Shown here one piece after another: positions 9,808 to 36,131 of a DNA stretch of 64,000 bases. The stretch is from Micromonospora sp. Llam0. GTDB taxonomy: Bacteria; Actinomycetota; Actinomycetes; Mycobacteriales; Micromonosporaceae. Numbering within the stretch: position 1 is the stretch's first letter; each line of letters opens with the position of its first letter. A program made the translations under genes and the position numbers. The notes under the pieces were generated by a model that saw only the letters and a program-made list of their open reading frames with translations, was not told where the DNA came from and searched no databases. The stretch is from positions 930,001 to 994,000 of the forward strand of contig NZ_RJJY01000001.1 in NCBI RefSeq assembly GCF_003751085.1, written 5' to 3'.

Positions 9808-12543
9808 CTAGACGAACCGCCAGAGGTGGTCGTTGGTGCCGTTGTCGTCCCAGATGATGACCTGGGCCCCCTGAGCGGTGGACGCGCCGCTGACGCCGAG
9901 GACCCGGCCGCCGTTCGCGCACTGGATCCGGAAGTAGCCGTTGGCTCCGTACCGCAGCCGCCACCGGTGGTCGTTGGTGCCGTTGTCGGCCCACTGGAGC
10001 ACCCGGGCACCGTTGGCGGTGCTGGCGTTTTCCACGCCGAGTACCTTGCCGCTGTTGGAGTTGCGCAGGCGCAGGTAGCCACCCGTGTCGATCATGGCGG
10101 TCCACAGATGATCGGCGGTGCCGGTGTCGCCCCATTGGATGACCAGGCCGCCGTCGGCGGTGGACATGTTCTGTACGCCGAGCACGAGGCCGCTGCCGAG
10201 GTTCTGGATCCGCCGGGCACCGGTGGGGAGGAACCGCCACTGGTTGTCCGCCGTGCCGTTGTCCGGATCCTGGACCGCCCGGGCACCCTGGGCGGTGGAG
10301 CCGTTCAGGATGGCCAGCAGCTTCCCGGTGTGCACGTTGCGGATCTTGTGCGAGCCGTCTCCGACATCGACGATGGTCCACCGGTGGTCGGCGGTTCCGG
10401 TGTCGCCCCACTGCAGAATCGGAGTGTTGTCGGCGGTGGACATGTTCTGTACGCCGAGCACCTTCCCGCTGTGGACGTTGCGCAACCGCAGGGCGGTCCC
10501 GTCGACGATCAACTGCCACTCGTGGTCGGCGGTGCCGTTGTCGGCCCACTGCAATGCCAGGCCGCCGTCGGCGGTCGACATGTTCTGGATGCCGAGCACC
10601 AGTCCACTGGCCGCGTTGGCCAGGCGGAAACTGGCGCTCGAATCGGTGCCCCCACCGCCGCGGTTCCAGTACACCGTGTAGTTGTGACCCTGGGCGTCGT
10701 AGAAGGGGCCGAGGTTGACCGTGGCGCCGTTGGCGGTGGCGGTGAAGGCCAGCGAACTGGTGCTGGTCCGGGTCACCGAACTGGTGTTCAACGAGGGGAG
10801 AGCGCTCAGGGTCGTGTTGCCGTAGTTTCCCGACAACACGACCGGGCCGTAGACGAGCGCCACCACGTTCTGGTTGTCGTTGGCGGGCTCTACCGCGACC
10901 TGCATCGGCAGCCGTACCGTGACCGCGTCACCGGATGTCCAGGAGCGGGTGAGCGCGGCGTAGGTGCCCGGCGTGGTGGCGATGCTCTGCGCGACACCGT
11001 TGACGCTGATGGTGGCGTTGCTGGCCCAGGCGGGGATGCGTACCCGCATGGTCCAGGAGCCGCTGACGTTGCCGGTGACGGTGAGGGTGGTGGTGTCGCT
11101 GACCGGGTAGCTGGTGGTCTGGGTGACGGTGATCCCGCGTTGGGACCAGTTGAGCACCGACGGCAGGAACAGGTTCACGGTCAGCGTGGTGCTGTTGTGG
11201 AAGTAGATGGAGTCCATCAGCTTCGTGTTCGTCTCGATGCCGGTGCCCTGGCAGCACCAGAACGAGTTGTAGTCGGTGCTGAAGGTGCCGCCGCCCCAGG
11301 CCGGGCCGACGCCACGGCGACCGCCGGGCCGCAGCGGGGTGAAGTAGGTGCCGTGCCCGTGGTTGCTGGCCGGGTTCTGCTGGCCGATGAGGTGGTTGAG
11401 CAGGGCCCGCTCGTAGTAGTCGAAGTACGCCACCCGGTTCGGGTCCAGCAGCCACAGCTCGCGGGTCAGTTTGAGCATGTTGTACGTGTTGCACGCCTCG
11501 GCGGTGTCGTTGGCGAGGTACCCGGCGATGGCGTTCGGGGGGCGGAAGTGTTCCGCCTGGCTGTTGCCGCCGATCACGTAGGTGTGCGTGTCGACGGTCA
11601 TGTTCCAGGCGTTGCTGGCGATGTCGCGGTAGCGGGTGGTGCCGGTGGCCTTGTACTCCCGCGCGGCACCCACCCACTTCGGGATCTGGGTGTTCGCGTG
11701 TTTGCCGTTGAGTTGGTCCTGGTTGGCGGCGAGCGGGTTGAAGACCGAGGCGTGGTCGAACCGTTGCGCGGTGGCGAGCCAGCGAGCGTCGCCGGTCTGC
11801 TGGTAGAGGTCGGCCAGCACGGCGTTCATGCCGCCGAATTCGGTGTTCAGCACCGTCTGCATCTGGTTGTAGCTCAGCCGGCCGGTCCGCCAGTCGACCC
11901 AGCCGGCGAGCCGCAGCAGGACGTCTCGGGCCTGGTTGTTGCCCATGTAGCGCCAGACGTCGAGCAGCCCGGCCAGCGTCTTGTGGATGCAGTAGTACGA
12001 CACGGCGACGAAGCCGCCCGATTCGAGAGCGGCGATGTCGGACTCGGGGAAGCCGGACAGGTATCCGGTGTTGAATCCGGCGGCGCCGTTGTTGGCCTGA
12101 CACTTGGCCAACTCGCCGACCATGTAGTTGGCCTTGTCCCGGCAGGTGGTGTCGCCGGTGACGGCGTAGGCGTACGACCAGGCGGTGAGGAAGTGCCCCT
12201 GCATGTGGGAGCGGAAGGGAAAGTTCGGGGCATCCCAGCCGCCGTTGGTGGCGGCTCCGTTGGTGGAGAGTCGGTGGTTGGCCCGAAAGACGTAGAGCAT
12301 CCGGTCCACGTCGACGAAGCGCAGATAGTTCAGGGTGCGGTTCTGGTTGTCCAGCCAACGGCTGCTGGTCAGCCGCACCTGACCCATCTCGAACGGATAC
12401 GCGGACACCCCGATGTCCGGACGGACCGGGGCGACCTCGGCGGCGGCTGCGGACATTCCGACCATCGGACCGACCGCCGAGGCGACAGTGGCGGCACCGG
12501 CGGCTTGGAGCAGTTGGCGGCGGTTCAGATCTGGAAAAGGCAT
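9808..12543 (-). CDS. Secreted GH127-type beta-L-arabinofuranosidase with C-terminal ricin-B repeats
   Basis: 911 residues from ATG 12543 (GATGGAG upstream). It begins with a Tat-type signal (NRRQLLQAAGAATVASAVGP), so it is exported. Residues about 45-620 form the DUF1680/GH127 (alpha/alpha)6 barrel. The zinc and nucleophile cysteines of the family are present: EAC with Cys351, and FWCCQGTG with Cys430 and Cys431, matching the ExC...CC pattern of characterised GH127 enzymes. From about residue 640 to the end come six QxW-type ricin-B/CBM13 units (LQWADNGTADHEW, IQWGDTGTADHLW and so on), which probably bind arabinan or galactan side chains. The LacI-type operator at 12667 controls it, probably together with the GH43 gene. 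Confidence 0.9.
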   Translation of the reverse strand: MPFPDLNRRQLLQAAGAATVASAVGPMVGMSAAAAEVAPVRPDIGVSAYPFEMGQVRLTSSRWLDNQNRTLNYLRFVDVDRMLYVFRANHRLSTNGAATNGGWDAPNFPFRSHMQGHFLTAWSYAYAVTGDTTCRDKANYMVGELAKCQANNGAAGFNTGYLSGFPESDIAALESGGFVAVSYYCIHKTLAGLLDVWRYMGNNQARDVLLRLAGWVDWRTGRLSYNQMQTVLNTEFGGMNAVLADLYQQTGDARWLATAQRFDHASVFNPLAANQDQLNGKHANTQIPKWVGAAREYKATGTTRYRDIASNAWNMTVDTHTYVIGGNSQAEHFRPPNAIAGYLANDTAEACNTYNMLKLTRELWLLDPNRVAYFDYYERALLNHLIGQQNPASNHGHGTYFTPLRPGGRRGVGPAWGGGTFSTDYNSFWCCQGTGIETNTKLMDSIYFHNSTTLTVNLFLPSVLNWSQRGITVTQTTSYPVSDTTTLTVTGNVSGSWTMRVRIPAWASNATISVNGVAQSIATTPGTYAALTRSWTSGDAVTVRLPMQVAVEPANDNQNVVALVYGPVVLSGNYGNTTLSALPSLNTSSVTRTSTSSLAFTATANGATVNLGPFYDAQGHNYTVYWNRGGGGTDSSASFRLANAASGLVLGIQNMSTADGGLALQWADNGTADHEWQLIVDGTALRLRNVHSGKVLGVQNMSTADNTPILQWGDTGTADHRWTIVDVGDGSHKIRNVHTGKLLAILNGSTAQGARAVQDPDNGTADNQWRFLPTGARRIQNLGSGLVLGVQNMSTADGGLVIQWGDTGTADHLWTAMIDTGGYLRLRNSNSGKVLGVENASTANGARVLQWADNGTNDHRWRLRYGANGYFRIQCANGGRVLGVSGASTAQGAQVIIWDDNGTNDHLWRFV

Positions 12544-12666
12544 GGTGGCTCCATCGGGTGTGGGGTGGGGAGCGGGCTGGGTGGGCGCTCCCGGGGTTCC
12601 CCGAAGTCCGGCGCGTCGAGGCGGCCGAGCCGCGCGGAACCGAGTCAGACTCAATGCAGGCTGGTC

Positions 12667-12684
12667 TATGTTAGCGATAACATA
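12667..12684. promoter_or_regulatory. LacI-type operator upstream of the GH127 gene
   Basis: TATGTTAGCGATAACATA, with perfect 7-bp arms TATGTTA/TAACATA, lies 124 bp before the start codon. It shares the TGTTAGCGNTAACA core with the site at 3907. Confidence 0.65.
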
Positions 12685-12747
12685 CTGGGTCCGTAACACG
12701 TCCGCAACCCCTCTGTCAGTGCAGCAGTCGCAGACTGGCTGACACGA

Positions 12748-13272
12748 TCACACCACCGTGGTCGAGCCGGGCCGAACGATCATCAGCACCGTGACGGTCG
12801 CCCAGAGCAGGTTGAACACCCCGGTGTACGCGGCCAGCCGGGCCGGGGCGGCGGTCGCTGACGTCGTCGTTGGCTCTGGGTCGTCGCCGGGAGTGTCGGT
12901 CTCGGTCAGCAGCGCCTGCTGGCGGGGGAGCACCCGCAGCACCAGCAGCGCGGCGGCGATCGCGGTGAGCGCGATCGACACGAGCAGCCAGGCGTCGGTG
13001 AGGACCCCGAGACTGGTGGCGGTGGCCCGTTGTGCGGCGCTGTCGCGGGCTGCGGTCGCCACCGGGTACACCACACCGGCGTCGGTGAGCCGGGTGTGTA
13101 GGTGGCGTTCCCGTACGGTCGAGTGGAGCCAGAACAGCACGGGCCAGATCCGGTTGGTGACCCGGGCCAGGCTCATGTAGCCGTCGACTTTGTCGACCAG
13201 GACGGGTAGCGGTTCGCGAGGCGGATGCGCGCGGAACGCGTCGACACGCTCTGCGACGAGATCGCCGGGCAT
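12748..13272 (-). pseudogene. Membrane protein fragment, 5' end cut by the ISL3 remnant
   Basis: An open frame of up to 174 residues from ATG 13272. Residues 20-50 read EPLPVLVDKVDGYMSLARVT, then come a possible helix (NRIWPVLFWLHST), a clear transmembrane helix (DAWLLVSIALTAIAAALLVLRVL) and a last hydrophobic stretch (GVFNLLWATVTVLMI). No RBS is seen before the first ATG, and the reading frame runs straight into the transposase remnant at about 13,290. The gene has therefore probably lost its 5' part. The family is not recognised. Confidence 0.55.
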
Positions 13273-13295
13273 ACCCGCCGGGATCAGCGTGCCGG

Positions 13296-13642
13296 TCCTC
13301 GCCGCGTGGAACGCCAAGGAAGACCTCCTCGACCTGCTGGCCCTGGCCCGCACCCACCCGGACCGGGAACACGTCGCCCGGCTGCTGCACCTCTTCTACC
13401 AGCGCTGCGCCGACAGCGATCTACCCGAACTCGCCCGCCTCGCGACCACGATCGAGATCTGGTGGCCCCAGATCCTCGCGTTCCTGCACACCGGCATCAC
13501 CAACGCAGGCTCCGAAGGCACCAACCGGGTCATCAAGACCGTCGCCCGCGACGCCTACGGCTTCCGCAACCCGATCAACCAACGCCTACGAACCCGCTGC
13601 GCGACCACCCGGAAAAGCCGCGGCCACCTCAACCCCGCCTAA
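13296..13642 (+). pseudogene. ISL3-family transposase, C-terminal remnant
   Basis: About 115 codons from VLAAWNAKEDLLDLLALA to the stop match the C-terminal third of ISL3-family DDE transposases. Recognisable parts are LHLFYQRCADSDLPELARL, IEIWWPQILAFLHTGITNA, GSEGTNRVIKTVARDAYGF and RTRCATTRKSRG. The last catalytic glutamate region (NAGSEGTNRVIK) is present, but the N-terminal zinc finger and the other acidic residues are absent. No inverted repeat pair could be identified, so only this stump remains. It abuts the cut membrane-protein gene on the other strand. Confidence 0.8.
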
Positions 13643-13783
13643 CTTCGAAGAGCCTCTTTGCTGCAACCCCGAACGCAGCGCGTAACCTACCAGGACCACG
13701 AGAATGCGCAGAACTCCTGGATGGAATGTCGAATTCTTAGCGGGTGGACTGCACCGCGCTGGAGCGCCGACACTGCGGTCTTC

Positions 13784-14098
13784 TCACTCGCCGACGCCTT
13801 CGCTGAGGTACCGTTCCACCGCCTCGACCTTTCCGGTAAGCGCCCCAGAAACACCCGGTCGATAATCGACCTTCACTACCGTACTCACCCGTGGCGCCAA
13901 CGCGGCCACAGCCTCCACCGCCTGCTTGACCACTCCCATGACCTCATCCCACGTATCCCCCTCGACCAACGTGAACATCGCATCGGTCTGGTTCGGCAAG
14001 CCCGAGGCCCGGACCACACGGATGCCCTCAGCGACGATCCGACCCACGTCCTCACCTACGCCCAACGGTGTCACCGAGAACGCCACCAGCACGGACAT
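13784..14098 (-). CDS. MTH1187/YkoF-type thiamine-binding protein
   Basis: 104 residues ([20 protein letters not shown]) of the UPF0045/MTH1187 family, small ferredoxin-like proteins that bind thiamine or its hydroxymethylpyrimidine part. Family features seen are the N-terminal strand VAFSVTPLG, the central [20 protein letters not shown] and the C-terminal VVKVDYRPG. The start at 14098 was chosen because it matches the family N-terminus; the frame is open upstream without a likely RBS. The gene sits between the ISL3 remnant and the first IS1380 copy, with no thiamine gene adjacent. Confidence 0.85.
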
Positions 14099-14233
14099 AG
14101 CCACTCCTTCCGCTGTGCTTCCGACTGCCGCCCAGCGGAGAGCAGCGGGTCCCTGAACCCCATAGATCACGAACAAGCTTCCCCCTGACTTCGGTCACCC
14201 GCTTCCGGTCCTCGTCTCCTGCTCTGCCCTGAG

Positions 14234-15921
14234 CCTCGATCCACCGATGAAGGTTTGACCGGCAGGACCCCGGCTACAGAAAGTGCCCTCTGAACTGGAA
14301 GGATAGGAGTTCTGACGCTTCTATCACTCGGTTCGAGAGGGCACCTCGCAGGTGAGAATACGCCAGGACGCGCCGGTGGTGCGCGCGACGTTCGACGATC
14401 CGAATCTGGTGTCGTGTGCCGGTCTCGTTCCGGTGATGCGCCTTGCCGAGCAGGCCGGTCTGCACGACGCGGTCGCAGACCGGGTCAGGCTACCGACGGA
14501 CAAGGGCGCGAACCCGGCCGGCAAGGTCGCCACGATCGTGGCCGGGATGCTCGCGGGCGCGGACAGCATCGACGACCTCGACATCGCCCGGCACGGCGGC
14601 ATGCGGTCGCTGTTCGGCGGCGTGTACGCGCCGTCGACACTCGGGTCGTTCCTGCGTACGTTCACCCACGGGCACGTACGGCAGTTACAGGCCGCCGCCC
14701 GCGACACCCTGATCGGTCTGACCGGCCGGGCACCGATCCTGACCGGCGCCGACACCCTGTGCTTCGTGGACATCGACTCCATGCTGCGGCGGGTGTACGG
14801 CAAGCAGAAGCAGGGCATCGGGTTCGGCCACGCCAAGGTCGGCGGCTACAACGTCTACCTGCGCGGCTACAACCCCCTGGTCGCGACGCTGTCCACCCCG
14901 CTGTCCGCGCCGGTGATCGCCGCCACGAGGCTGCGGTCGGGTAACGCCGGCTCGGCCCGGGGCGCCGCCACCATGATCGCCGAGGCCATCACGACCGCCC
15001 GGGCATGCGGCGCTTCGGGGGAGATCATGGTGCGAGCGGACTCGGCGTTCTACGCCAAGACGGTGATCAGCGGCTGCCGGCGTCGTGGCGTGCGGTTCTC
15101 GGTCACCTGCCGCATCGACCCGAAGATCCGCGCCGCGTGCGACGGCATCGCCGCCGACCAGTGGGTCGACATCACCTATCCGCAGGCCGTCTGGGACGAA
15201 GACGCCGGCCGGTGGATCTCCGACGCGCAGATCGCCGAAACCACGTACACCGCGTTCGCCGGCACCCGACACGAGGCGACCGCCCGGCTGATCGTGCGCC
15301 GCGTCCGCCGCGACGACCCGCAACAGATCCCCGGCCAGGACGAACTCCTGCCGACCTACCGGTACCACGCCGTGTTCACCGACAGCCCGTACACCCTCGT
15401 CCAGGCCGAAGCCCAGCACCGGCAACACGCGATCATCGAGCAGGTCAACGCCGACCTGATCGCCGGGCCCCTCGCCCACCTGCCCTCCGGACACTTCAGC
15501 GCCAACGACGCCTGGCTGACCTGCGCCGCGATCACGCACAACCTCACCCGCGCCGCCGGACACCTCGCCGCGGGCACCTGGTCGACCGCCAGACCCGCCA
15601 CCATCCGGACCCGGATCATCACCGTCGCGGCCCGCCTCGCCCACCGGGCCCGCACCATCCACCTACACCTGCCCGAGTACTGGCCCTGGCAGGCGGCGTT
15701 CGACAACCTGTTCACCGCCGTCCAGCCGGCACCCGGCTGACCACACCCCACCAGCCGAAACCAGGCGGCCCGACCACAGGCCACAATCCCCGTTCCACCT
15801 CGAACCCTCACCCTCGGAGCAAGCCGATCACGTGATCGGCGACTCCCTCACGCCCGCCCCACCACCCCAATACAGAAATGTTCAACCAACATTTAGCGGC
15901 AACCGCGTCGGTGGATCGAGG
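14234..15921 (+). mobile_element. IS1380-family insertion sequence, copy 1
   Basis: 1,688 bp, identical as far as I can read to copy 2 at 33120-34807. The ends are inverted repeats: CCTCGATCCACCGA on the left, and the complement of its start (GGTGGATCGAGG) on the right. The single transposase gene runs left to right. Flanking five bases are CTGAG on the left and CTCAG on the right. These do not match as a direct target duplication, unlike copy 2, so one flank has probably been replaced. Confidence 0.92.
14352..15740 (+). CDS. IS1380-family DDE transposase (copy 1)
   Basis: 462 residues. Typical DDE_Tnp_1/IS1380 features: LADARELIP-like motifs are absent, but DTLCFVDIDSMLRRVYG with its first Asp, an EIMVRADSAFYAK segment with the second Asp, and the C-terminal HFSANDAWLTCAAITHNLTR are all present. 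The full length suggests an active enzyme. Translation probably starts at 14352, just inside the left inverted repeat region. The copy at 33238 encodes the same protein without visible differences, so the two are recent duplicates. Confidence 0.93.
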   Translation: MRIRQDAPVVRATFDDPNLVSCAGLVPVMRLAEQAGLHDAVADRVRLPTDKGANPAGKVATIVAGMLAGADSIDDLDIARHGGMRSLFGGVYAPSTLGSFLRTFTHGHVRQLQAAARDTLIGLTGRAPILTGADTLCFVDIDSMLRRVYGKQKQGIGFGHAKVGGYNVYLRGYNPLVATLSTPLSAPVIAATRLRSGNAGSARGAATMIAEAITTARACGASGEIMVRADSAFYAKTVISGCRRRGVRFSVTCRIDPKIRAACDGIAADQWVDITYPQAVWDEDAGRWISDAQIAETTYTAFAGTRHEATARLIVRRVRRDDPQQIPGQDELLPTYRYHAVFTDSPYTLVQAEAQHRQHAIIEQVNADLIAGPLAHLPSGHFSANDAWLTCAAITHNLTRAAGHLAAGTWSTARPATIRTRIITVAARLAHRARTIHLHLPEYWPWQAAFDNLFTAVQPAPG

Positions 15922-15926
15922 CTCAG

Positions 15927-27730: not shown

Positions 27731-27930
27731 TCATCGACCGTACGTCGCCGCGATGACGGGGCGACGGAACGCGCTGCGGTAGGCGTACGGGCTGGTGCCG
27801 ACGATTCGTTTGAAGCTGTCGCGGAACGCGGTAGACGAGCCGAAGCCGACCCGGCGACCGATCCGCTCCACCCCGTCGTCGGTGGCTTCCAGCAGGTGCT
27901 GGGCCTGCCGGATCCGGGCAGTCAGTGAGC
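27731..27930 (-). pseudogene. C-terminal fragment of an AraC/GlxA-type regulator
   Basis: The minus strand encodes ARIRQAQHLLEATDDGVERI, then GRRVGFGSSTAFRDSFKRIV, GTSPYAYR and the stop. This is the second half of an AraC DNA-binding domain, with the typical GFGS..FRDSFKR..G.SP.AYR pattern. Everything before about 27930 is missing. The break coincides with the start of the DUF6907 gene on the other strand, so this is one boundary of the inserted element. Confidence 0.8.
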
Positions 27931-28299
27931 GTAAGAAGCCAGAAGAATCTTGGATCTACCGAAACCGGCCCTGACCAGCGGCATCCTGCCTGGTGTGACC
28001 GCGCCCGATGCACAGCTGATGCGGCTGCGCTGTCCGGCAAGGGCTACCGCCCCGGTGCCGCAGGGCGGCACCTATCGGCACCGGTCCGTCTCGATCTGAC
28101 CACAGCGATAGCCCTCGCGCCGCAGGCCGGGGAGGCGTATCTGACGCAGGCTGTCGCCCCGTGGCCGTGCGAGACCTATCTCCACGTCCAGCACGGTGAC
28201 AGCGACATCGCGATGACGGTGCGGAACGCGTCGCCGTTGTTGTCCGCGCTGCGGCTGCTCACGACCGAGGCCGAGGCTGAGAGTGGGTGGTCGTGGTGA
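27925..28299 (+). CDS. DUF6907 family protein of integrative elements
   Basis: 124 residues. The core HPAWCDRARCTADAAALSGK followed by APVRLDLTTAIALAPQAGEA and CETYLHVQHGD is the DUF6907 pattern that is frequent in actinomycete integrative and conjugative elements. Its first dozen residues (VRSQKNLGSTETG) may be a new N-terminus created at the junction with the AraC fragment. It is coupled by GTGA to a truncated DUF2637 gene. Function unknown; regulatory or transfer-related roles have been suggested for such genes only by context. Confidence 0.7.
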   Translation: MSVRSQKNLGSTETGPDQRHPAWCDRARCTADAAALSGKGYRPGAAGRHLSAPVRLDLTTAIALAPQAGEAYLTQAVAPWPCETYLHVQHGDSDIAMTVRNASPLLSALRLLTTEAEAESGWSW

Positions 28300-28421
28300 G
28301 GAGCCGTACGGATCGGATCCTGACGGCCGTGACCGTGGTGTGTGTCGCGGGGCTGGCCGTCGTCGCGGGGACGATCTCGTTCGCGCACATGCACGAGCTG
28401 GCGATTATCTGGAGCTTGTGA
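28296..28421 (+). pseudogene. DUF2637 (SpdB-like) gene, N-terminal fragment
   Basis: Only 41 codons: RSRTDRILTAVTVVCVAGLA, then VVAGTISFAHMHELA, after which the reading frame leaves the family and stops. The first transmembrane helix and the conserved FAHMHELA motif of DUF2637 spread-type transfer proteins are intact; the other helices are gone. The break, just after HELA (about 28403), marks an edge of the Tn554-like element that follows. Confidence 0.75.
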
Positions 28422-28452
28422 CCTGGTGTGCTGGGTTTACCAGGGCTTTCCT

Positions 28453-28472
28453 GTCGTGGACATGTCCACGAC
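28453..28472. repeat. 20-bp perfect palindrome near the end of the Tn554-like element
   Basis: GTCGTGGACATGTCCACGAC lies 80 bp beyond the last gene of the recombinase operon. It could be a terminator for that operon or a recombinase-binding site at the element end. A weaker stem, CCTGGT...ACCAGG, precedes it at 28422. No gene lies between 28422 and 28552. Confidence 0.6.
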
Positions 28473-28552
28473 GGGCCAGGTGGGCGTCGGCAGGTTGGGC
28501 TCGCGGCGGTGGGGGTTTGATCGCGCGCCCGGAATGGGGGTGATCGCTGGGT

Positions 28553-29035
28553 TCAAGACGGTGGGTGAGGAGTTCGAGCGGCCCGTGCCGTCTGGAGCCA
28601 GTCGTCGCGCCAGGGGAAGTGGCCGGCGTTGGTGGGGTGTGCGACCACGGTCTCGATCAGGAAGTCGTACCAGCCGTTGCCGAGTAGCAGCTTGTAATCG
28701 GGTGGGCCGCCCGCACGGATCATCGGCATAAGGCCGTCGCCGTCGTCGATGAACTCCACGTCGACGGGGAGGCCGCCTTCGTGAACCAGTTCGCAGCGCA
28801 GCCATTTGTAGAGGATCGTCTGCACGGGCCAGGACTCGCCGCGGAACTCGATCTCAAGGTGGACGGTCATGCTGTCCTGATACAGCTTCTCGAACGCGGC
28901 CCGGTCGGATGCTGGCCTCGGGTGTAGCCGTCGGGCCGTCGCGGCGAACGCGATGAGAGCGATCGTCAGCGCGCCCTCGCGCCGGCCTGCTGCCCACAGG
29001 TGTTCGGCGTCTTCGACTCGACTGGCGATGCTCAT
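28553..29035 (-). CDS. HEPN-like protein, last gene of the Tn554-like operon
   Basis: 160 residues from ATG 29035, which overlaps the preceding stop as ATGA. The N-terminal half is helical (EDAEHLWAAGRREGALTIAL, then FAATARRLHP). The segment YKWLRCELVHEGG contains R80-x4-H85, the RxxxxH motif of HEPN ribonuclease or RNA-binding domains. The C-terminal half (DVEFIDDGDGLMPMIRAGG, then GNGWYDFLIETVV) looks like a second small domain. HEPN proteins are common toxins and defence effectors, but many are not nucleases. The family assignment rests on this motif and the helical pattern only. It is probably cargo of the transposon. Confidence 0.55.
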   Translation of the reverse strand: MSIASRVEDAEHLWAAGRREGALTIALIAFAATARRLHPRPASDRAAFEKLYQDSMTVHLEIEFRGESWPVQTILYKWLRCELVHEGGLPVDVEFIDDGDGLMPMIRAGGPPDYKLLLGNGWYDFLIETVVAHPTNAGHFPWRDDWLQTARAARTPHPPS

Positions 29036-29430
29036 GGATCCTGCCTCGTCTGCGGGGCGTTCGGGATGTTGATGTCGTCGAAGGTCGGGTGGGTCCAGGT
29101 GCCGATAGCACGGGGGTCGACATGCGCGGATGCGGCGGCGTGGCTGTCCAGCCATGTGGTGTCGCTGGCGGTGACGATGAAGGTGGTGCCGTTGTCGTCC
29201 TGTTTGACGACCAGGTAGGCGGTGACGGCGGGCGGGTCCGGGATGACGCCGACGGAGGGCAGGTGGCGCATGTCGCCGTGCCAGCCGATGTTGGGTGCGG
29301 CATCGGCGAGGGCGAGAACGGCTTGCAGCGCCCACTGGGTTGCGTGTGGGGAGGCGCCGTTGAGCCAGTCCGGCAGTGGAGTGAGCCCATCGAAGACGTC
29401 GATGGGTTCGGTCAGTCGGTAGATGAACAT
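29032..29430 (-). CDS. Unrecognised protein coupled to the HEPN-like gene
   Basis: 132 residues from ATG 29430, which shares its A with the stop of the DUF6262 gene (TGATG). MFIYRLTEPIDVFDGLTPLP is followed by QWALQAVLALADAAPNIGWH and VTAYLVVKQDDNGTTFIVTA. This looks like a small alpha/beta protein similar to uncharacterised proteins of actinomycete elements. It could be the partner (antidote or sensor) of the HEPN-like protein, by position only. Confidence 0.6.
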   Translation of the reverse strand: MFIYRLTEPIDVFDGLTPLPDWLNGASPHATQWALQAVLALADAAPNIGWHGDMRHLPSVGVIPDPPAVTAYLVVKQDDNGTTFIVTASDTTWLDSHAAASAHVDPRAIGTWTHPTFDDINIPNAPQTRQDP

Positions 29431-29831
29431 CACGGCTCCCTCGCCGGCGCGGGTGTGTGGCGCAGACGCCGGATCTCGCCGTGCGCGATTTCCAGTTGTC
29501 GGGTCAGGTCGGCGTTGTCGGCGCGGAGTTGCTTGATGCGTGCCAGCGCGGTGTCGAGCCGGTGCCGCAGAGACGCGATGCTGGCCGGTTGTGGGCCGGT
29601 GCGCTCGGGGGCGGGATGGCGTTGCTGGAGTTGCCGGATGGCGTCGATGAGGTCGGGTTGGGTGTAGAGCCAGGACCGGGACACTCCCGCGGCGTGGGCA
29701 AGGCCGGCGACGGTGGCGGTGCGGCCGGTGCGGCCGGCGGCGGCCAGAGCCTTCTCGGCGCGGGCACGGGCCTGTTCGGCCCGCAGGCGCGCGGCCCGGG
29801 TGAGGGCGGTGGCGTGGTCAGCCGGCGGCAT
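29430..29831 (-). CDS. DUF6262 / TnpC-like accessory protein of the Tn554-type recombinases
   Basis: 133 residues. Residues 10-75 hold an HTH (VAGLAHAAGVSRSWLYTQPD), and the last 50 residues form a coiled coil (LRHRLDTALARIKQLRADNA, DLTRQLEIAHGEIRRLR). This HTH plus coil, as third gene after two tyrosine recombinases, matches TnpC of Tn554 in order and size; TnpC influences efficiency and orientation of transposition. It overlaps the end of the recombinase B gene by 14 bp. Confidence 0.82.
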   Translation of the reverse strand: MPPADHATALTRAARLRAEQARARAEKALAAAGRTGRTATVAGLAHAAGVSRSWLYTQPDLIDAIRQLQQRHPAPERTGPQPASIASLRHRLDTALARIKQLRADNADLTRQLEIAHGEIRRLRHTPAPAREP

Positions 29832-32127
29832 CCAGGACCTCCCCGAGGTCTTCCACGACGCCGCCGGCCACGATCTGCCCCGGCTGCGAGGTTTCCAGCG
29901 CGTCGATGATGGCGTCGAGCTTGCCCAGGGTGCGCCGGTTGCGTTCAGCGATGCGGGCCAGGCCGGAACGCTGCGCGTCGTCGATAAGCTTGGTGGTTTC
30001 GTCGCGTTGGCGGCGGTGCTGGTCGAGGAAGTCGGTAGTGGTGATGAAGAACCGGCAGTCCAGACACGGGTTGGCGTACTCGCAGTCGGTCTGCACCGGG
30101 GCACCGCAGTAGCCGTTGGGCAGGGTCACCTTCGCCCGGACCATGGACAGCCGCATCCACGCGGCGTCGGCGAGGGGATGGTCGGCGGGGATCACGGTGG
30201 TCTGCCCGTCGGCGTTGACCTTGACGGCGTTCTCCCAGTGCCGGCGCAGGGTCTTGTTATGCAGCCGGGCGTAGACAGCGGTCATCTCCCGGGACATGTG
30301 GTCGAGTAGTTGCTGCACGATGTGCAGCGGCACGTCAGCGTTGATGAGCCTGGTGGCGACGGTGTGTCGGAACTGGTGCGGAGTCACCGAGGTGGGCCGG
30401 TCGTGCTCATCGACGAGCCGGATGCGCCGTAGCCAGGTGTTGAGGTAGTCGCGGTAGGAGATGTCCGGCATCGGCCGGCTGCCATTGAGGTTGACCTTAC
30501 GGGCCGGGAACAGCCACCCGCAGCCGGCCGGATAGCGGTCCAACACCCGCCGCTGCTGGTCGGCGATCTGCCCGGCGAGGGTGTCACTGATCGGAAAGAA
30601 CGCGACCCTCTCACGGATCTTGTGGTTGACCCATGCCAGGTAGCCGGCTCCGGTGTTGTCCCGCACCACGCAGTCGAACGGCAGCCGGCGGGCGTCTTTG
30701 AGCCGCAGCCCGCAATTGATGAGGATGCGGGTGACCAGGCGGGCGTCGTCGCCGTCGAACAGCGCGAGATTGGACTCAGCTTCCAACTGCCGCATCAGGT
30801 GCTCGCTGATGAAGCGGGGCTTGGCCGGTCTGGGAGGCGGGGCGTCATCGGTGAACACGAACGCGCCCGCCGGAAGGTCGGGCAGCCAGTCGTGGCGGTG
30901 CACGTCACGCAGGAACACCGACAGCGCCCCGACGTGATCTCGCACCGCCACCGTGGGCAGCCACGACTCGATACGTTCCCGGGTCAGGTCGGCCGGCCGC
31001 GCCTGCGAGCCGGCATGGGCGGCGAGGTGCCGGCCGAAACACGCCACGCCGATCGCGTTGCGGGCGACCGTGGACGCCTTGACGCCACGGGCCAGCCGCC
31101 ACCGACACCACCGCTTGGCCACGCCCCGTAGCCACAGCTGCGGAATCCCTCCGAAGTGCATGAGACGCGGTTGGCCCGCAGGGATACCCAACAGCCGAAG
31201 GTCCCACGTGTCACGGGGATACTGGTCGGCCCACGGGTCGTCGGCGATGAGCAACTGGATCAGCCGCATCCGGGTGTCCAGCACGAACCGTAGCGACACT
31301 GACGCGTAATCCCGCTGCCCACACGGGATGCGCCGGCCCGCGCCGAAAACCTTCCGCCAACCCGGCTCGTCCAGATCCAGCAGACTGGTCACCCCGGCGT
31401 CGACGATGTGCTTGACCGCAGTGGTCACCTGCAACATCGGGGTGCGCTTGACCGCCTCGTCGTGACGGCACTGCAGCCCGTACTGCACCTCCAGACGCGC
31501 ATGTCGACCCAGCCGACCCAGCTTCACGTGCGGGACCTGCCGCTCGACAGCCTCGCGGGCCAACCCCGCGTACCAGCCGGCCATATCCGGCCGCCCCGCC
31601 ACCTTCCACCGCGCGTAGTGGTGATGGCAGTACGGCATCGCCGCGCTCTCCGCCCACCGAGGACAGCCGGGGAACTGGCAGTCGGCCTCCCCGAACTCGG
31701 TCGGCGTGTAGTCAACCTGAGCGAGCCACGCCGTCTGCTCGGGGCGACCCCGCCTCGCCCACTGGCGGTGATGCCGCTGACACAGACCATTCTGCGTCGT
31801 CGACCGGTTGCAGCCCGACACCCCGCAGACCGGCGCGACACCGCGACGCAGCAGCCGTTCGTCCTCGGCTGCCAGCCAGTCCTCCCACCCGCCCCGGTGC
31901 GGATCGTGCAGCCACCTCTGGTAGTGACTGTCGCACAGCCCTCGCACCGGATGTCCCACCATGTTGAGGCAGTTGACCAACCGGCACTCCCCACGCACGA
32001 ACACCGCGTCGTCGCGGCCTGGGCGGAACACATCAGCGCGGAACTCCGGCCGCACCGCCCGCATCAGCCGCTCCAGCAGCCCAACCCGCTCCAACGCACC
32101 AGCGCCGGCCGGCTCGCGGCCCGTCAC
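29818..32127 (-). CDS. Large tyrosine recombinase (TnpB-like) with three N-terminal zinc-knuckle repeats
   Basis: 769 residues, GTG start overlapping the stop of recombinase A (GTGA). The C-terminal catalytic domain shows the tyrosine recombinase residues: Arg in NCGLRLKDARRL, His-x-x-Arg in TPHQFRHTVATR, His in LLDHMS and the nucleophile Tyr in MTAVYARL. Before it is a SAM-like core-binding domain. The N-terminus carries three repeated C-x4-C...C-x2-H-x3-W units (CRLVNC...CDSHYQRW; CGVSGC...CQRHHRQW; CQFPGC...CHHHYARW) between about residues 48 and 175. A further Cys cluster (CEYANPCLDC) lies near the C-terminus. Size and order fit Tn554 TnpB. Confidence 0.9.
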   Translation of the reverse strand: MTGREPAGAGALERVGLLERLMRAVRPEFRADVFRPGRDDAVFVRGECRLVNCLNMVGHPVRGLCDSHYQRWLHDPHRGGWEDWLAAEDERLLRRGVAPVCGVSGCNRSTTQNGLCQRHHRQWARRGRPEQTAWLAQVDYTPTEFGEADCQFPGCPRWAESAAMPYCHHHYARWKVAGRPDMAGWYAGLAREAVERQVPHVKLGRLGRHARLEVQYGLQCRHDEAVKRTPMLQVTTAVKHIVDAGVTSLLDLDEPGWRKVFGAGRRIPCGQRDYASVSLRFVLDTRMRLIQLLIADDPWADQYPRDTWDLRLLGIPAGQPRLMHFGGIPQLWLRGVAKRWCRWRLARGVKASTVARNAIGVACFGRHLAAHAGSQARPADLTRERIESWLPTVAVRDHVGALSVFLRDVHRHDWLPDLPAGAFVFTDDAPPPRPAKPRFISEHLMRQLEAESNLALFDGDDARLVTRILINCGLRLKDARRLPFDCVVRDNTGAGYLAWVNHKIRERVAFFPISDTLAGQIADQQRRVLDRYPAGCGWLFPARKVNLNGSRPMPDISYRDYLNTWLRRIRLVDEHDRPTSVTPHQFRHTVATRLINADVPLHIVQQLLDHMSREMTAVYARLHNKTLRRHWENAVKVNADGQTTVIPADHPLADAAWMRLSMVRAKVTLPNGYCGAPVQTDCEYANPCLDCRFFITTTDFLDQHRRQRDETTKLIDDAQRSGLARIAERNRRTLGKLDAIIDALETSQPGQIVAGGVVEDLGEVLDAAG

Positions 32128-33119
32128 ACCAGCACCCCGGCGGCGATCAAGGCCCGACGATGATCCTCTACCGTCAGGTGGCTGTAGGTCTGCGACGTGG
32201 TGGTAGCGCTGGCATGCCCGAGCAACCCGGCGACCACCTCGACCGGCACCCCAGCCCGCAGCAGCCTCGTCGCGTACCCATGCCGCAGCACATGCGGCGA
32301 GAACCCGGCAATCCCGGTCCGCGCCCGCAGCCGGGCCACCAGCTTGGCCACGCTGTCAGCGGTCATCGGCACACCCAACGGCGGGCGGAACAGATTCACG
32401 AACACGAAGTCGCAGTCCAACGTCCCGTACTCCGCCTCCATATAATCGGCGTACGCGTCGAACACCACCAGCGGCGCGGGCACCACCCGCGCCTTCAACC
32501 CCTTCACCCGCGCCCCATTGACGTTGTCCTCGCGCGGCACCACCGCGACCTCCCCAGCGCGCAACCGCAGATCCGCGTGCCGCAGCCCCAGCGCCTCACC
32601 CAGCCGCAACCCGGTCTGATCCAACAAGACCAGCAGAAACCGATCACGGCGACGCGGACAGGCAGCAACCAGCCGCGCTACCTGACCCTCCGGCAACTCC
32701 ACCGGCGACTTGCGGACAAACGGAATCCGCACCGGGCTGTACGCCTCCGCGCCCAGCCGACCCCGGCGGGTATGCGCCAGCATCGGCACGAACGGACCGG
32801 TCGCCCGTGGCCCCACCAACTCGCCGAGCAACGCCGGCACCGAGCCATCCCGACGGGCGTGGAACCGGTAGAAACTCGCCAGCGCCGCCCGCTTACGCAG
32901 CAGCGTCGCCGGCTCCACCGCCGACGGCGTACCCGGCAACATGAACACCCCCGGCGTCCGCGCCGGCACCGGCCGCGCCAGCCAGCCGAAAAACCCGGTC
33001 AACTCCTCCAAACTCAGCCTCCGGAAGTCCAGCCCGGCCTGGCCCAGCCACTCCACGAAATCCCGCAAATCGTGCGCGTACGCCGCGACCGTGTTCGGCG
33101 AACGACCCACCACGCTCAG
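32124..33119 (-). pseudogene. Tyrosine recombinase A (TnpA-like), 5' end cut by IS1380
   Basis: About 330 residues remain, from VVGRSPNTVAAYAHDLRDF to the stop. The catalytic residues are complete: Arg in QTGLRLGEALGL, HVLRHGYATRLL, His in LGHAS and Tyr in SQTYSHL. At 33119 the gene meets IS1380 copy 2. If the IS and one CTCAG copy are removed, the frame continues for six more codons (EVFLAH, bases 34808-34830) and then ends at the IS3 element. The N-terminal DNA-binding end is thus lost to two insertions. A truncated protein from GTG 33113 is possible, but activity is doubtful. Confidence 0.85.
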
Positions 33120-34807
33120 CCTCGATCCACCGATGAAGGTTTGACCGGCAGGACCCCGGCTACAGAAAGTGCCCTCTGAACTGGAAGGATAGGAGTTCTG
33201 ACGCTTCTATCACTCGGTTCGAGAGGGCACCTCGCAGGTGAGAATACGCCAGGACGCGCCGGTGGTGCGCGCGACGTTCGACGATCCGAATCTGGTGTCG
33301 TGTGCCGGTCTCGTTCCGGTGATGCGCCTTGCCGAGCAGGCCGGTCTGCACGACGCGGTCGCAGACCGGGTCAGGCTACCGACGGACAAGGGCGCGAACC
33401 CGGCCGGCAAGGTCGCCACGATCGTGGCCGGGATGCTCGCGGGCGCGGACAGCATCGACGACCTCGACATCGCCCGGCACGGCGGCATGCGGTCGCTGTT
33501 CGGCGGCGTGTACGCGCCGTCGACACTCGGGTCGTTCCTGCGTACGTTCACCCACGGGCACGTACGGCAGTTACAGGCCGCCGCCCGCGACACCCTGATC
33601 GGTCTGACCGGCCGGGCACCGATCCTGACCGGCGCCGACACCCTGTGCTTCGTGGACATCGACTCCATGCTGCGGCGGGTGTACGGCAAGCAGAAGCAGG
33701 GCATCGGGTTCGGCCACGCCAAGGTCGGCGGCTACAACGTCTACCTGCGCGGCTACAACCCCCTGGTCGCGACGCTGTCCACCCCGCTGTCCGCGCCGGT
33801 GATCGCCGCCACGAGGCTGCGGTCGGGTAACGCCGGCTCGGCCCGGGGCGCCGCCACCATGATCGCCGAGGCCATCACGACCGCCCGGGCATGCGGCGCT
33901 TCGGGGGAGATCATGGTGCGAGCGGACTCGGCGTTCTACGCCAAGACGGTGATCAGCGGCTGCCGGCGTCGTGGCGTGCGGTTCTCGGTCACCTGCCGCA
34001 TCGACCCGAAGATCCGCGCCGCGTGCGACGGCATCGCCGCCGACCAGTGGGTCGACATCACCTATCCGCAGGCCGTCTGGGACGAAGACGCCGGCCGGTG
34101 GATCTCCGACGCGCAGATCGCCGAAACCACGTACACCGCGTTCGCCGGCACCCGACACGAGGCGACCGCCCGGCTGATCGTGCGCCGCGTCCGCCGCGAC
34201 GACCCGCAACAGATCCCCGGCCAGGACGAACTCCTGCCGACCTACCGGTACCACGCCGTGTTCACCGACAGCCCGTACACCCTCGTCCAGGCCGAAGCCC
34301 AGCACCGGCAACACGCGATCATCGAGCAGGTCAACGCCGACCTGATCGCCGGGCCCCTCGCCCACCTGCCCTCCGGACACTTCAGCGCCAACGACGCCTG
34401 GCTGACCTGCGCCGCGATCACGCACAACCTCACCCGCGCCGCCGGACACCTCGCCGCGGGCACCTGGTCGACCGCCAGACCCGCCACCATCCGGACCCGG
34501 ATCATCACCGTCGCGGCCCGCCTCGCCCACCGGGCCCGCACCATCCACCTACACCTGCCCGAGTACTGGCCCTGGCAGGCGGCGTTCGACAACCTGTTCA
34601 CCGCCGTCCAGCCGGCACCCGGCTGACCACACCCCACCAGCCGAAACCAGGCGGCCCGACCACAGGCCACAATCCCCGTTCCACCTCGAACCCTCACCCT
34701 CGGAGCAAGCCGATCACGTGATCGGCGACTCCCTCACGCCCGCCCCACCACCCCAATACAGAAATGTTCAACCAACATTTAGCGGCAACCGCGTCGGTGG
34801 ATCGAGG
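33120..34807 (+). mobile_element. IS1380-family insertion sequence, copy 2
   Basis: 1,688 bp, same orientation and sequence as copy 1. Here the five flanking bases are CTCAG on both sides (33115-33119 and 34808-34812), a clean target-site duplication. It lies inside the 5' part of recombinase A, 23 bp from the IS3 element. Confidence 0.95.
33238..34626 (+). CDS. IS1380-family DDE transposase (copy 2)
   Basis: 462 residues, identical to the protein of copy 1, with DTLCFVDIDSMLRRVYG, VRADSAFYAK and HFSANDAWLTCAAITHN. Full length, presumed active. Because the target duplication is intact, this copy is probably the more recent insertion. Confidence 0.93.
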   Translation: MRIRQDAPVVRATFDDPNLVSCAGLVPVMRLAEQAGLHDAVADRVRLPTDKGANPAGKVATIVAGMLAGADSIDDLDIARHGGMRSLFGGVYAPSTLGSFLRTFTHGHVRQLQAAARDTLIGLTGRAPILTGADTLCFVDIDSMLRRVYGKQKQGIGFGHAKVGGYNVYLRGYNPLVATLSTPLSAPVIAATRLRSGNAGSARGAATMIAEAITTARACGASGEIMVRADSAFYAKTVISGCRRRGVRFSVTCRIDPKIRAACDGIAADQWVDITYPQAVWDEDAGRWISDAQIAETTYTAFAGTRHEATARLIVRRVRRDDPQQIPGQDELLPTYRYHAVFTDSPYTLVQAEAQHRQHAIIEQVNADLIAGPLAHLPSGHFSANDAWLTCAAITHNLTRAAGHLAAGTWSTARPATIRTRIITVAARLAHRARTIHLHLPEYWPWQAAFDNLFTAVQPAPG

Positions 34808-34903
34808 CTCAGATGCGCCAGGAACACCTCTGAGGTGCCCCGAGGATTCCGGACAGGGAGCCAATAAGGTTACCCTGTTAGGAAAGTCGAGGGAAGAAGC
34901 GCG

Positions 34904-35197
34904 ATGGCACGCATAAGCTCATACACCCCAGAGTTCCGTGAAGAAGCAGTGCAACTCGTTCTACAGTCGAACAAGCCAGTGTCGCAGGTTGCCCGGGAGA
35001 TCGACGTTCACCCGGAGACGCTGCGTTCCTGGGTCCGCCAGTACCGGCGGGAAAACAGCGGCGCCCAGAACAGCCCACAGATCGGCATCGACGAGCGCGC
35101 TCGACTGAAGGAACTCGAACGCCGCAACCGGGAACTCGAAATGGAGAACAGCTTCCTGAAAAAAGCCGCGGCGTACTTCGCGAAGGACCCTCGGTAA
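34904..35197 (+). CDS. IS3-family transposase OrfA
   Basis: 97 residues. An HTH_Tnp_1 domain (YTPEFREEAVQLVLQSNKPV, then SQVAREIDVHPETLRSWVRQ) is followed by a leucine-zipper-like coil (LKELERRNRELEMENSFLKK). It binds the terminal repeats. Near its end CTGAAAAAAGCC offers a slippery site for making the OrfAB fusion. Confidence 0.93.
   Translation: MARISSYTPEFREEAVQLVLQSNKPVSQVAREIDVHPETLRSWVRQYRRENSGAQNSPQIGIDERARLKELERRNRELEMENSFLKKAAAYFAKDPR
35159..35165 (+). promoter_or_regulatory. A6G programmed -1 frameshift site
   Basis: AAAAAAG, in phase AAA-AAA-G with orfA. A -1 slip here leads directly into the orfB frame (mod-3 check agrees). This is the usual IS3 mechanism. Confidence 0.75.
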
Positions 35198-35202
35198 CGA
35201 GC

Positions 35203-36087
35203 TTGTACGAGTTCATCGAGACGATGCGACTCGACACCGCGAAGTACGCCTACCCCGTCGACTTCATGTGCGAACAACTCGGCGTGTCCAGGTCCGGATA
35301 CTACGAATGGCGAACCCGCCCCGACTCCGCGACCGCCACCCGCCGCGCCCACCTTCGATCGGCCATCGAGGAGGTGTTCGCCGCGTCTGACGGCACCTAC
35401 GGGCATCGACGTGTCCACGCGCAACTGCGGCGCCAGGGCGTGTCCGCCGGGCCGGAACTCGTCCGCCAGCTGATGCGCGAGCTCGGGCTCGTGCCGTGCC
35501 AGCCCCGCCCGAGGCGGTGGGGACTCACCCAGTCGTCGTCCGGCACGGTGCCTGACCTCGTCGGCCGGGAGTTCACCGCCGACGCGCCTGGGGAGAAGCT
35601 CGTCGGCGACATCACGTACATCCCGACCGGCGAGGGGTGGCTGTATCTGGCGACCGTCATCGACTGCTGCACGAAGGAAGTCATCGGGTACGCGATGGAC
35701 GACCACTACCAGACGCCGTTGATCTCCCGCGCCATCCGTAACGCCGCCCGGAATCGCGAACTCAGAAAGAACGCCATCTTTCATTCGGACCGGGGCAGCA
35801 ACTACATGTCGGACGACTACGGCAGAACGCTTCGGGATCTGAGGTTGCGGCGATCCGCTGGCCGGACCGGAATTTGTTTCGACAATGCGATGGCGGAATC
35901 GTTCTTCGGTGCACTGAAGAACGAACGCGTGTCGCGTGTGAAGTATCCCACGCGTGAGGCGGCACGTCGGGACGTTACTGCCTACATCGAATTCTGGTAC
36001 AATCGTCAGCGTCTGCATTCAGCGGTGGGCTACCGACCTCCCCGGGAAGTCCACGCAGAGTTCGAGAACCTTCAAATCGCGGCGTGA
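35203..36087 (+). CDS. IS3-family transposase OrfB (DDE integrase domain)
   Basis: About 294 residues, read mainly as the tail of an OrfAB fusion; a weak TTG at 35203 could start it alone. HTH_21 region TYGHRRVHAQLRRQGVSAGP precedes the rve core. The DDE residues are in VGDITYIPTGEGW (first Asp), HSDRGSNYMSDDYG (second Asp) and FDNAMAESFFGALKNE (Glu). All look intact. Confidence 0.93.
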   Translation: MYEFIETMRLDTAKYAYPVDFMCEQLGVSRSGYYEWRTRPDSATATRRAHLRSAIEEVFAASDGTYGHRRVHAQLRRQGVSAGPELVRQLMRELGLVPCQPRPRRWGLTQSSSGTVPDLVGREFTADAPGEKLVGDITYIPTGEGWLYLATVIDCCTKEVIGYAMDDHYQTPLISRAIRNAARNRELRKNAIFHSDRGSNYMSDDYGRTLRDLRLRRSAGRTGICFDNAMAESFFGALKNERVSRVKYPTREAARRDVTAYIEFWYNRQRLHSAVGYRPPREVHAEFENLQIAA

Positions 36088-36131
36088 AAGAACCCGGCCG
36101 AACCACTGTCCGGAAAACGCGAGGCCCCTCA

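Follow-up and report, generated by a model that had tools for sequence, protein, structure and literature searches.

Transposons related to Tn554 are a known class in actinobacteria, and the elements described in PMC3414803, which reside on actinobacterial plasmids and chromosomes, pair an ordinary tyrosine recombinase with an abnormally long one and often carry a relative of TnpC. The same arrangement was found in the stretch of DNA analysed here, 64,000 nucleotides of contig NZ_RJJY01000001.1 from the soil bacterium Micromonospora sp. Llam0 (positions 930,001 to 994,000; hereafter the window), where a Tn554-like remnant occupies positions 28405..33114 on the minus strand. Compared with the elements as presented in that paper, it is distinguished by two accessory genes that overlap the operon tail, by a Micromonosporaceae host, and by insertion into a DUF2637 gene. 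The transposon class is known; the variant seen here is new and has at its tail two accessory genes, which encode the proteins P0002 and P0001 and come from independently distributed families.

Tn554 and the strand-biased circularizing elements (SEs) treated in PMC10214605 share with the present element a 6-bp spacer, the lack of a target duplication, and imperfect inverted end repeats. Six foreign base pairs at whichever border lies away from the first recombinase are likewise shared with the SEs, and are noted in that paper for Tn554-related elements. The present element has no Tfp gene, in which it resembles Tn554 and departs from the SEs; it further differs in having no resistance cargo and a different target. 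In the GInts, according to PMC5385486, cargo also begins at the stop codon of a TnpC-like gene, but three integrase-type genes and ginD are present and the amount of cargo varies. IS21-like istA-istB elements (L065-L068) carry a P0002 homologue after istB, but use a DDE-type transposase and lack P0001. Among proteins, members of the HEPN superfamily (AbiV, HepT, AF0298; PMC3710099) resemble P0001 in the Rx4H motif that ends core helix 3, the insert between helices 2 and 3, and their nature as small mobile-element proteins, whereas P0001 differs in having C instead of N, D or H after the R, beta strands between helices 3 and 4 in the predicted model, and no significant family match.

On balance, we lean towards reading the feature as an actinobacterial Tn554-type transposon, present as a copy interrupted by an insertion sequence (IS), that acquired its two tail genes independently; the last of them would encode a solo HEPN-type ribonuclease with a role in defence.

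Organization and conservation of the operon

Five genes on the minus strand each overlap the next. The first, tnpA (33113..32124, GTG start, 329 amino acids), encodes an ordinary tyrosine recombinase (PF00589, 2.2e-30) whose N-terminal part is cut off, and shares a 4-bp GTGA overlap with tnpB (32127..29818, GTG start, 769 amino acids), which encodes a large tyrosine recombinase (PF00589, 1.1e-17). A 14-bp overlap joins tnpB to tnpC (29831..29430, 133 amino acids), whose product matches DUF6262 with a marginal score (PF19776, 29.9 bits against a cut-off of 29) in a position that fits a TnpC-like third gene. The P0002 gene (29430..29032, 132 amino acids), with a WxGD(M/F)R...KQxNNG core, follows through a TGATG junction, and the P0001 gene (29035..28553, 160 amino acids), whose HEPN-like product contains R80-C-E-L-V-H85, through an ATGA junction. 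These open reading frame (ORF) coordinates bear out the five-gene block and its GTGA, 14-bp, TGATG and ATGA junctions as set out in an earlier note made from the sequence alone, and the R80 and H85 residues to which it pointed are present (RCELVH). Its recognition of a Tn554-like element also agrees with the two PF00589 recombinases, the DUF6262 protein, and the Tn554-type spacer and ends described below.

The block is retained in a second species: positions 27917-33119 of the window align with positions 10478-15654 of locus L009, from the congener G003, at 96.75% identity across the whole block. Between the two copies, synonymous changes exceed non-synonymous ones in tnpA, tnpB, tnpC and the P0002 gene, but not in the P0001 gene; the ratios of non-synonymous to synonymous change (dN/dS) were 0.06 for tnpA, 0.11 for tnpB, 0.26 for tnpC, 0.18 for P0002 (codons in the frame of the window), and 0.59 for P0001. 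Because the block is kept at this identity in a second species and four of its five genes show a synonymous excess, the coupling was considered more than chance. In the P0002 gene of G003, +1 and -1 changes about 73 bp (approximately 25 codons) apart restore the frame, and the P0001 gene beside it stays open; these compensating indels are either real drift or a sequencing error.

Ends, spacer and target site

The ends were set by aligning the G003 copy, which has both of them (L009 10966-15869, 4,904 bp), with three insertion-free sites, of which one lies near C1:5,486,000 of the genome that contains the window and the others in G002 and G001; a fourth insertion-free locus, in G004, diverges before the insertion site. 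In this comparison of filled and empty sites, the left terminal repeat TTATCTGGAGCTTG was placed at 28405..28418, and the left limit of 28422 given in the earlier note is corrected to 28405. The G003 copy has the inverted partner CAAGCTCCGGATAA, which matches at 13 of 14 positions, at its right end; the window copy lacks it. A 6-bp spacer, TGGCGA (28399..28404), separates target and element and is identical to the 6 bp of the empty site, which reads CGAGC-TGGCGA-CCGAG. The tnpA-proximal border of the G003 copy reads GATAA-TGGCGA-CCGAG and the distal border CGAGC-TCGTCG-TTATC. The G003 copy therefore shows the Tn554-type combination of no target duplication, a 6-bp spacer, and 6 foreign bp distal to tnpA; the window copy has one border. 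The target is a DUF2637 gene (PF10935 in L022), and with respect to target-site specificity G003 and the window have the same flank, which may go back to one ancestral insertion.

Because the ends were located against empty sites, the P0002 and P0001 genes can be placed inside the transposon, between tnpC and the left end, and they are the only further genes seen in the element besides tnpABC. That the last two genes belong to the element, as had been proposed, is thus confirmed by the filled and empty sites and by the G003 copy. About 45 bp from the left end lies a near-perfect palindrome of 26 bp (28450..28475, 13-nt arms, 92%), the core of which recurs near the equivalent end of the G003 element and of a related element in G064; it is a possible recombinase site.

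By analogy with Tn554, for which this is established, TnpA, TnpB and TnpC would move the element site-specifically. The P0002 and P0001 genes are stacked at the tail, each starting at the preceding stop codon, and where the element is unbroken their transcription and translation would continue from the recombinase genes as the last part of one operon.

Relatives of the transposon and order of gene gain

The related element of G064 occupies a 4,432-bp contig (L059) with end repeats on both sides; it carries tnpA, tnpB, tnpC and the P0002 gene, without P0001. Identity to the window was 82% for tnpA, 76-77% for tnpB, 72% for tnpC, and 70% for P0002; the tnpB of G003 is 98% identical. Homology between L059 and the window ends approximately 35 bp before the P0002 stop codon and resumes only at the palindrome approximately 45 bp from the left end. 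Since L059 has P0002 and lacks P0001, the two elements differ either by a gain of P0001 or by its loss; we favour a gain, though it is not proven. P0002 would then probably be an older, element-borne fourth gene and P0001 probably a later addition at the end of P0002.

Relatives of TnpB were detected at E 1e-20 in 138 plasmid records of varied bacteria, eight of which were inspected. At the inspected loci of distant TnpB relatives (approximately 37-55% identical), other genes or insertion sequences follow tnpC, and no P0002 homologue was found in the other Tn554-like loci examined. The pair thus follows tnpC in G003, and P0002 without P0001 follows it in G064.

Independent distribution of P0002 and P0001

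Adjacent and overlapping genes, the succession of a small protein and a HEPN-like protein, and the presence of both in G003 would suit a toxin-antitoxin (TA) or addiction pair, in which P0001 is a HEPN toxin and P0002 the antitoxin, together stabilising the transposon; G033 also has remnants of both families, though on different contigs. The distribution of the families speaks against such a pair. Relatives of P0001 were found at 21 distinct places and relatives of P0002 at 33 (163 loci, overlapping loci merged by hand), and the two occur together only in the window's genome (G000) and G003, that is, at 2 of 21 and 2 of 33 loci, both of them this transposon; in this count flank lengths vary, some contigs end near the gene, and 3 of the 11 Vibrio and 5 of the 6 plasmid records were covered. 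The two genes are not conserved together as a unit, and a TA system was rejected on this distribution, with the remnants in G033 as a caveat. Moreover, P0002 occurs without P0001 in L059, a relative with both ends, searches with P0002 gave no link to any antitoxin family, and the P0002 gene of G003 carries its two compensating frameshifts (or sequencing error) beside an open P0001 gene. A TA pair is accordingly rated very improbable.

The earlier note had suggested P0002 as the partner of P0001 and had tied this idea to finding the two genes with the recombinases in homologous elements. They are together with the recombinases in the window and G003, but at no examined locus outside this transposon lineage (within the limited flanks, and with the caveat of G033). 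P0002 stands alone in L059, next to istB, on plasmids and in phages, and the P0001 family occurs elsewhere without P0002, so the proposed partnership is not upheld; P0002 is probably not an obligate antitoxin of P0001.

The P0002 family

Searches of Pfam, NCBIfam and PADLOC with P0002 gave no match up to E 1. Its family was found in 11 of 250 genomes of the same taxonomic family (the window's own included), in 6 plasmid records (five inspected), and in 17 IMG/VR loci (several near-identical), and was absent from 326 genomes drawn across the phylum, save the window's own. In an alignment of 20 members, residues W50, G52, D53, R55, K76, N80 and G81 do not vary; 5 of the 20 weakly match PHROG 32290 (best E 0.0028, function unknown). 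Of five predicted structures, one reached a predicted local distance difference test score (pLDDT) of 78 and the others 37-48; because of these low scores and the lack of a significant fold match, P0002 was assigned no fold.

In four IS21-like operons a P0002 homologue comes after istB: L065 (G048; IstB PF01695), L066 (G113), L067 (G049) and L068 (G128), with istB partial in L066 and L067. A literature search on the IS21 family with istB plus a passenger gene turned up nothing. Past the P0002-family gene of L065 there is another small frame, together with repeated TGGGGCC motifs, and a repeated motif on both sides was found only at this locus. P0002 could be imagined as a fourth transposition factor that aids recombinases or transposases whatever their chemistry, with P0001 as cargo, since it comes directly after tnpC in G000, G003 and G064 and after a whole or partial istB in four IS21-like loci, and has a dN/dS of 0.18. 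The association with istB is not a rule, as a P0002 gene lies downstream in just 2 of the best 30 of 38 istB matches, which L066 and L067 bring to the total of four; the other istB loci among those listed had no common downstream gene by eye. With the other Tn554-like loci examined lacking a P0002 homologue, and with the family occurring also in tailed-phage loci and plasmids, a transposition factor seems unlikely to us.

The phage loci with P0002 have varied neighbours, with no common partner beyond closely related phages. In two Streptomyces plasmids (L078 4366-5372 and L080 4189-5195), a P0002-like gene lies approximately 83 bp after a 172-amino-acid gene, at equal distance in both, and in a Leptolyngbya plasmid (L082, approximately 4810-5155) a P0002-family frame carries no annotated gene. 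Judged from these matches, P0002 is a mobile-element gene common to IS21-like elements, plasmids and phages. A more specific proposal is that the family is a cross-element accessory, for example in anti-silencing or counter-defence, taken up separately by Tn554-type and IS21-type elements, plasmids and tailed phages, in transposons at the tail of the mobility operon, and joined here by a new solo HEPN-type ribonuclease family. We put this forward as a speculative, rather improbable extension; if true, a minimal 4.9-kb transposon would carry both a counter-defence and a defence gene.

Motif, predicted fold and gene context of P0001

R80, C81, L83 and H85 are invariant in all 20 aligned P0001 members, some of them closely related, so that the family has the Rx4-6H motif of HEPN proteins; the two halves of a split gene in G033 were left out of the alignment. 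The AlphaFold2 model (pLDDT 82.4, predicted template modelling score 0.82, 17-row alignment) has helices at residues 3-15 and 19-37, then one helix and a beta hairpin as an insert, a helix at 71-84 that ends at the motif, strands, and a helix at 121-132. This predicted structure comprises two helical hairpins, and its third core helix ends at the motif; both the helix order and the motif position are those described for HEPN in PMC3710099. Among the best 50 of 90 Foldseek matches in the PDB, the six highest query template modelling (TM) scores (0.27-0.39) all belong to HEPN chains (AbiV 9bj7 three times, 2hsb, HepT 5yep, and 6m6u), none of them significant. The invariant Rx4H and the HEPN-like predicted topology agree with the HEPN domain suggested in the earlier note, whereas no sequence or PDB fold search was significant; from the model, P0001 plausibly has a HEPN-type fold. 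Comparison of P0001 with Apea and AbiV HEPN sets using hhalign gave no match, and was uninformative because the Apea-AbiV positive control failed as well. The best viral fold match to P0001 was BFVD A0A0H4TI24, an unnamed 170-amino-acid viral protein (E 1.5e-3, TM 0.60, 12% identity). A literature search turned up nothing joining Tn554 and HEPN.

Near relatives of P0001 are rare, occurring in 2 of 7 genomes of the genus, 3 of 250 of the family, and 2 of 298 of the order (the window's own counted in each); no plasmid record matched, whereas 11 records of Vibrio phages did, with 51% of the query covered in 10 of them and 88% in one. IMG/VR gave 2 loci and an alignment search of GTDB contigs 13, one of which (L037) is the G033 contig again. 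The GTDB loci belong to Lysobacteraceae, Spirochaetia, Deltaproteobacteria, other Proteobacteria, Thermodesulfovibrionia and Planctomycetota, and further to Syntrophus, Pseudoalteromonas, Sulfuricurvum, an uncultured bacterium and Micromonosporaceae.

Gene context was inspected in 3 of the 11 Vibrio records: in two PM2-like proviruses the P0001 homologue comes after the integrase, and in a P2-like phage record it is the last annotated gene. In a P2-like prophage (L044), the homologue lies between gpA (PF05840) and the genes for Ogr, portal (PF04860, just below the cut-off) and terminase, and the interval from gpA to ogr and portal is described as a P2 hotspot of antiviral systems in PMC9122126. 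A type I restriction locus of a planctomycete (L038 8001-10159) has a P0001-family gene between hsdM and hsdS (PF01420), with a 4-bp overlap with hsdS, and in L041 a DUF1016 nuclease gene follows the homologue. These contexts support a defence role without proving it, and P0001 would most likely be a stand-alone HEPN-type ribonuclease acting in phage exclusion or abortive infection.

Marine members have approximately 110 extra C-terminal residues. In G033 (L011), a P0001-like gene, split at an IS110-like sequence or a contig break, begins 2 bp downstream of an open frame of 309 codons whose product has a possible membrane segment. As a different partner for P0001 this product was rejected: its comparison with the C-terminal extension of the marine long forms gave no convincing likeness (best z 1.9, with 14 of 300 shuffles as high, 8 sequences).

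Several observations weigh against a HEPN-type ribonuclease in defence. Sequence searches of Pfam, NCBIfam, PADLOC, PHROGs and the PDB gave no significant match for P0001, and with the query itself the first three gave nothing up to E 1; among the 20 members, the best of the weak matches were to an NCBIfam DHFR model (3 members, E 0.016), PADLOC AbiV (1 member, E 0.046) and PHROG 21294 (1 member, E 0.059). Foldseek against the PDB returned nothing below E 0.41. The residue after R80 is C81 in all 20 members, whereas N, D or H usually stands there in HEPN proteins; this polar residue is typical, not obligatory, according to PMC3710099, and because C81 departs from it P0001 was labelled HEPN-like and not filed as a HEPN member. 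By eye, many P0001 homologues neighbour genes without a link to defence. Finally, with 11 non-synonymous against 6 synonymous changes, P0001 evolves faster than the other genes of the operon (Fisher P 0.003, rounded counts), which fits relaxed constraint too.

The same lack of a significant profile or PDB fold match, the C after R80, and the equal invariance of D9, P39, D44, Y76, L89, P90 and D92 would also suit P0001 being some other small helical protein, nucleic-acid-binding or regulatory, in which R-x4-H is structural and which is not a ribonuclease. With HEPN chains at the top of the TM-scores among the Foldseek matches listed, this alternative is taken as possible and less probable than a HEPN-type ribonuclease.

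Disruption of the window copy

The window copy is a broken remnant that runs from the left end to an IS1380-family insertion sequence (about 33115..34812, plus strand), which splits tnpA. Of this sequence, 13 further copies at 99-100% lie in the window's genome, one of them at window positions 14229-15926. With tnpA broken at 33115-33119, the window copy is without the start of the gene, the sequence upstream of it and the right end in their proper places; the open frame has 370 codons in G003 and 388 in G064. Because of this interruption the recombinase promoter is cut off from the window copy, and the claim that the pair is under that promoter does not apply to it. Beyond the IS1380 element, 22 bp of tnpA follow (34809..34830, minus strand, 95% to G003), and the remaining approximately 200 bp up to the right end were not found anywhere in the window. 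Directly after the 22 bp comes a second repeated sequence (about 34831..36131, plus strand) with ORFs 34904..35197 and 35203..36087, IS3-like by eye.

On the left side, a 488-bp piece of the native target locus was carried along with the remnant (27917..28404, plus strand), containing a 124-amino-acid ORF and the 5' part of the DUF2637 gene. At 27919 it now abuts host sequence that runs on without a break in G003, G004 and G005. Because the continuation of that host sequence lies elsewhere in the window, at approximately 5.8-13.0 kb and inverted relative to G005, the region was concluded to be rearranged. The two near-identical IS1380-family copies in the window (14229-15926 and 33115-34812) and the inverted host sequence probably reflect an IS-mediated rearrangement.

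A copy without a right end and with a split tnpA could harbour both genes as neutral hitch-hikers that are decaying with a dead transposon, and the dN/dS of P0001, the frameshifted stretch in the P0002 gene of G003, and the broken P0001 homologue of G033 would fit such a fate. P0001 is nevertheless full-length and open in two species with its motif residues kept, and mobile elements of distant bacteria carry members of both families; decaying passengers are therefore considered an improbable explanation.

Conclusions

The relatives of the two genes suggest that P0001 and P0002 travel independently, and the idea of a fixed gene pair is corrected accordingly. The analysis yields two protein families that have clear sequence signatures, recur on transposons, plasmids and phages, and lack a significant Pfam, NCBIfam or PADLOC match. 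The arrangement suggests that Tn554-type elements gain genes at the operon tail, one stop codon at a time, and transposon tails could be mined for new defence or counter-defence genes.

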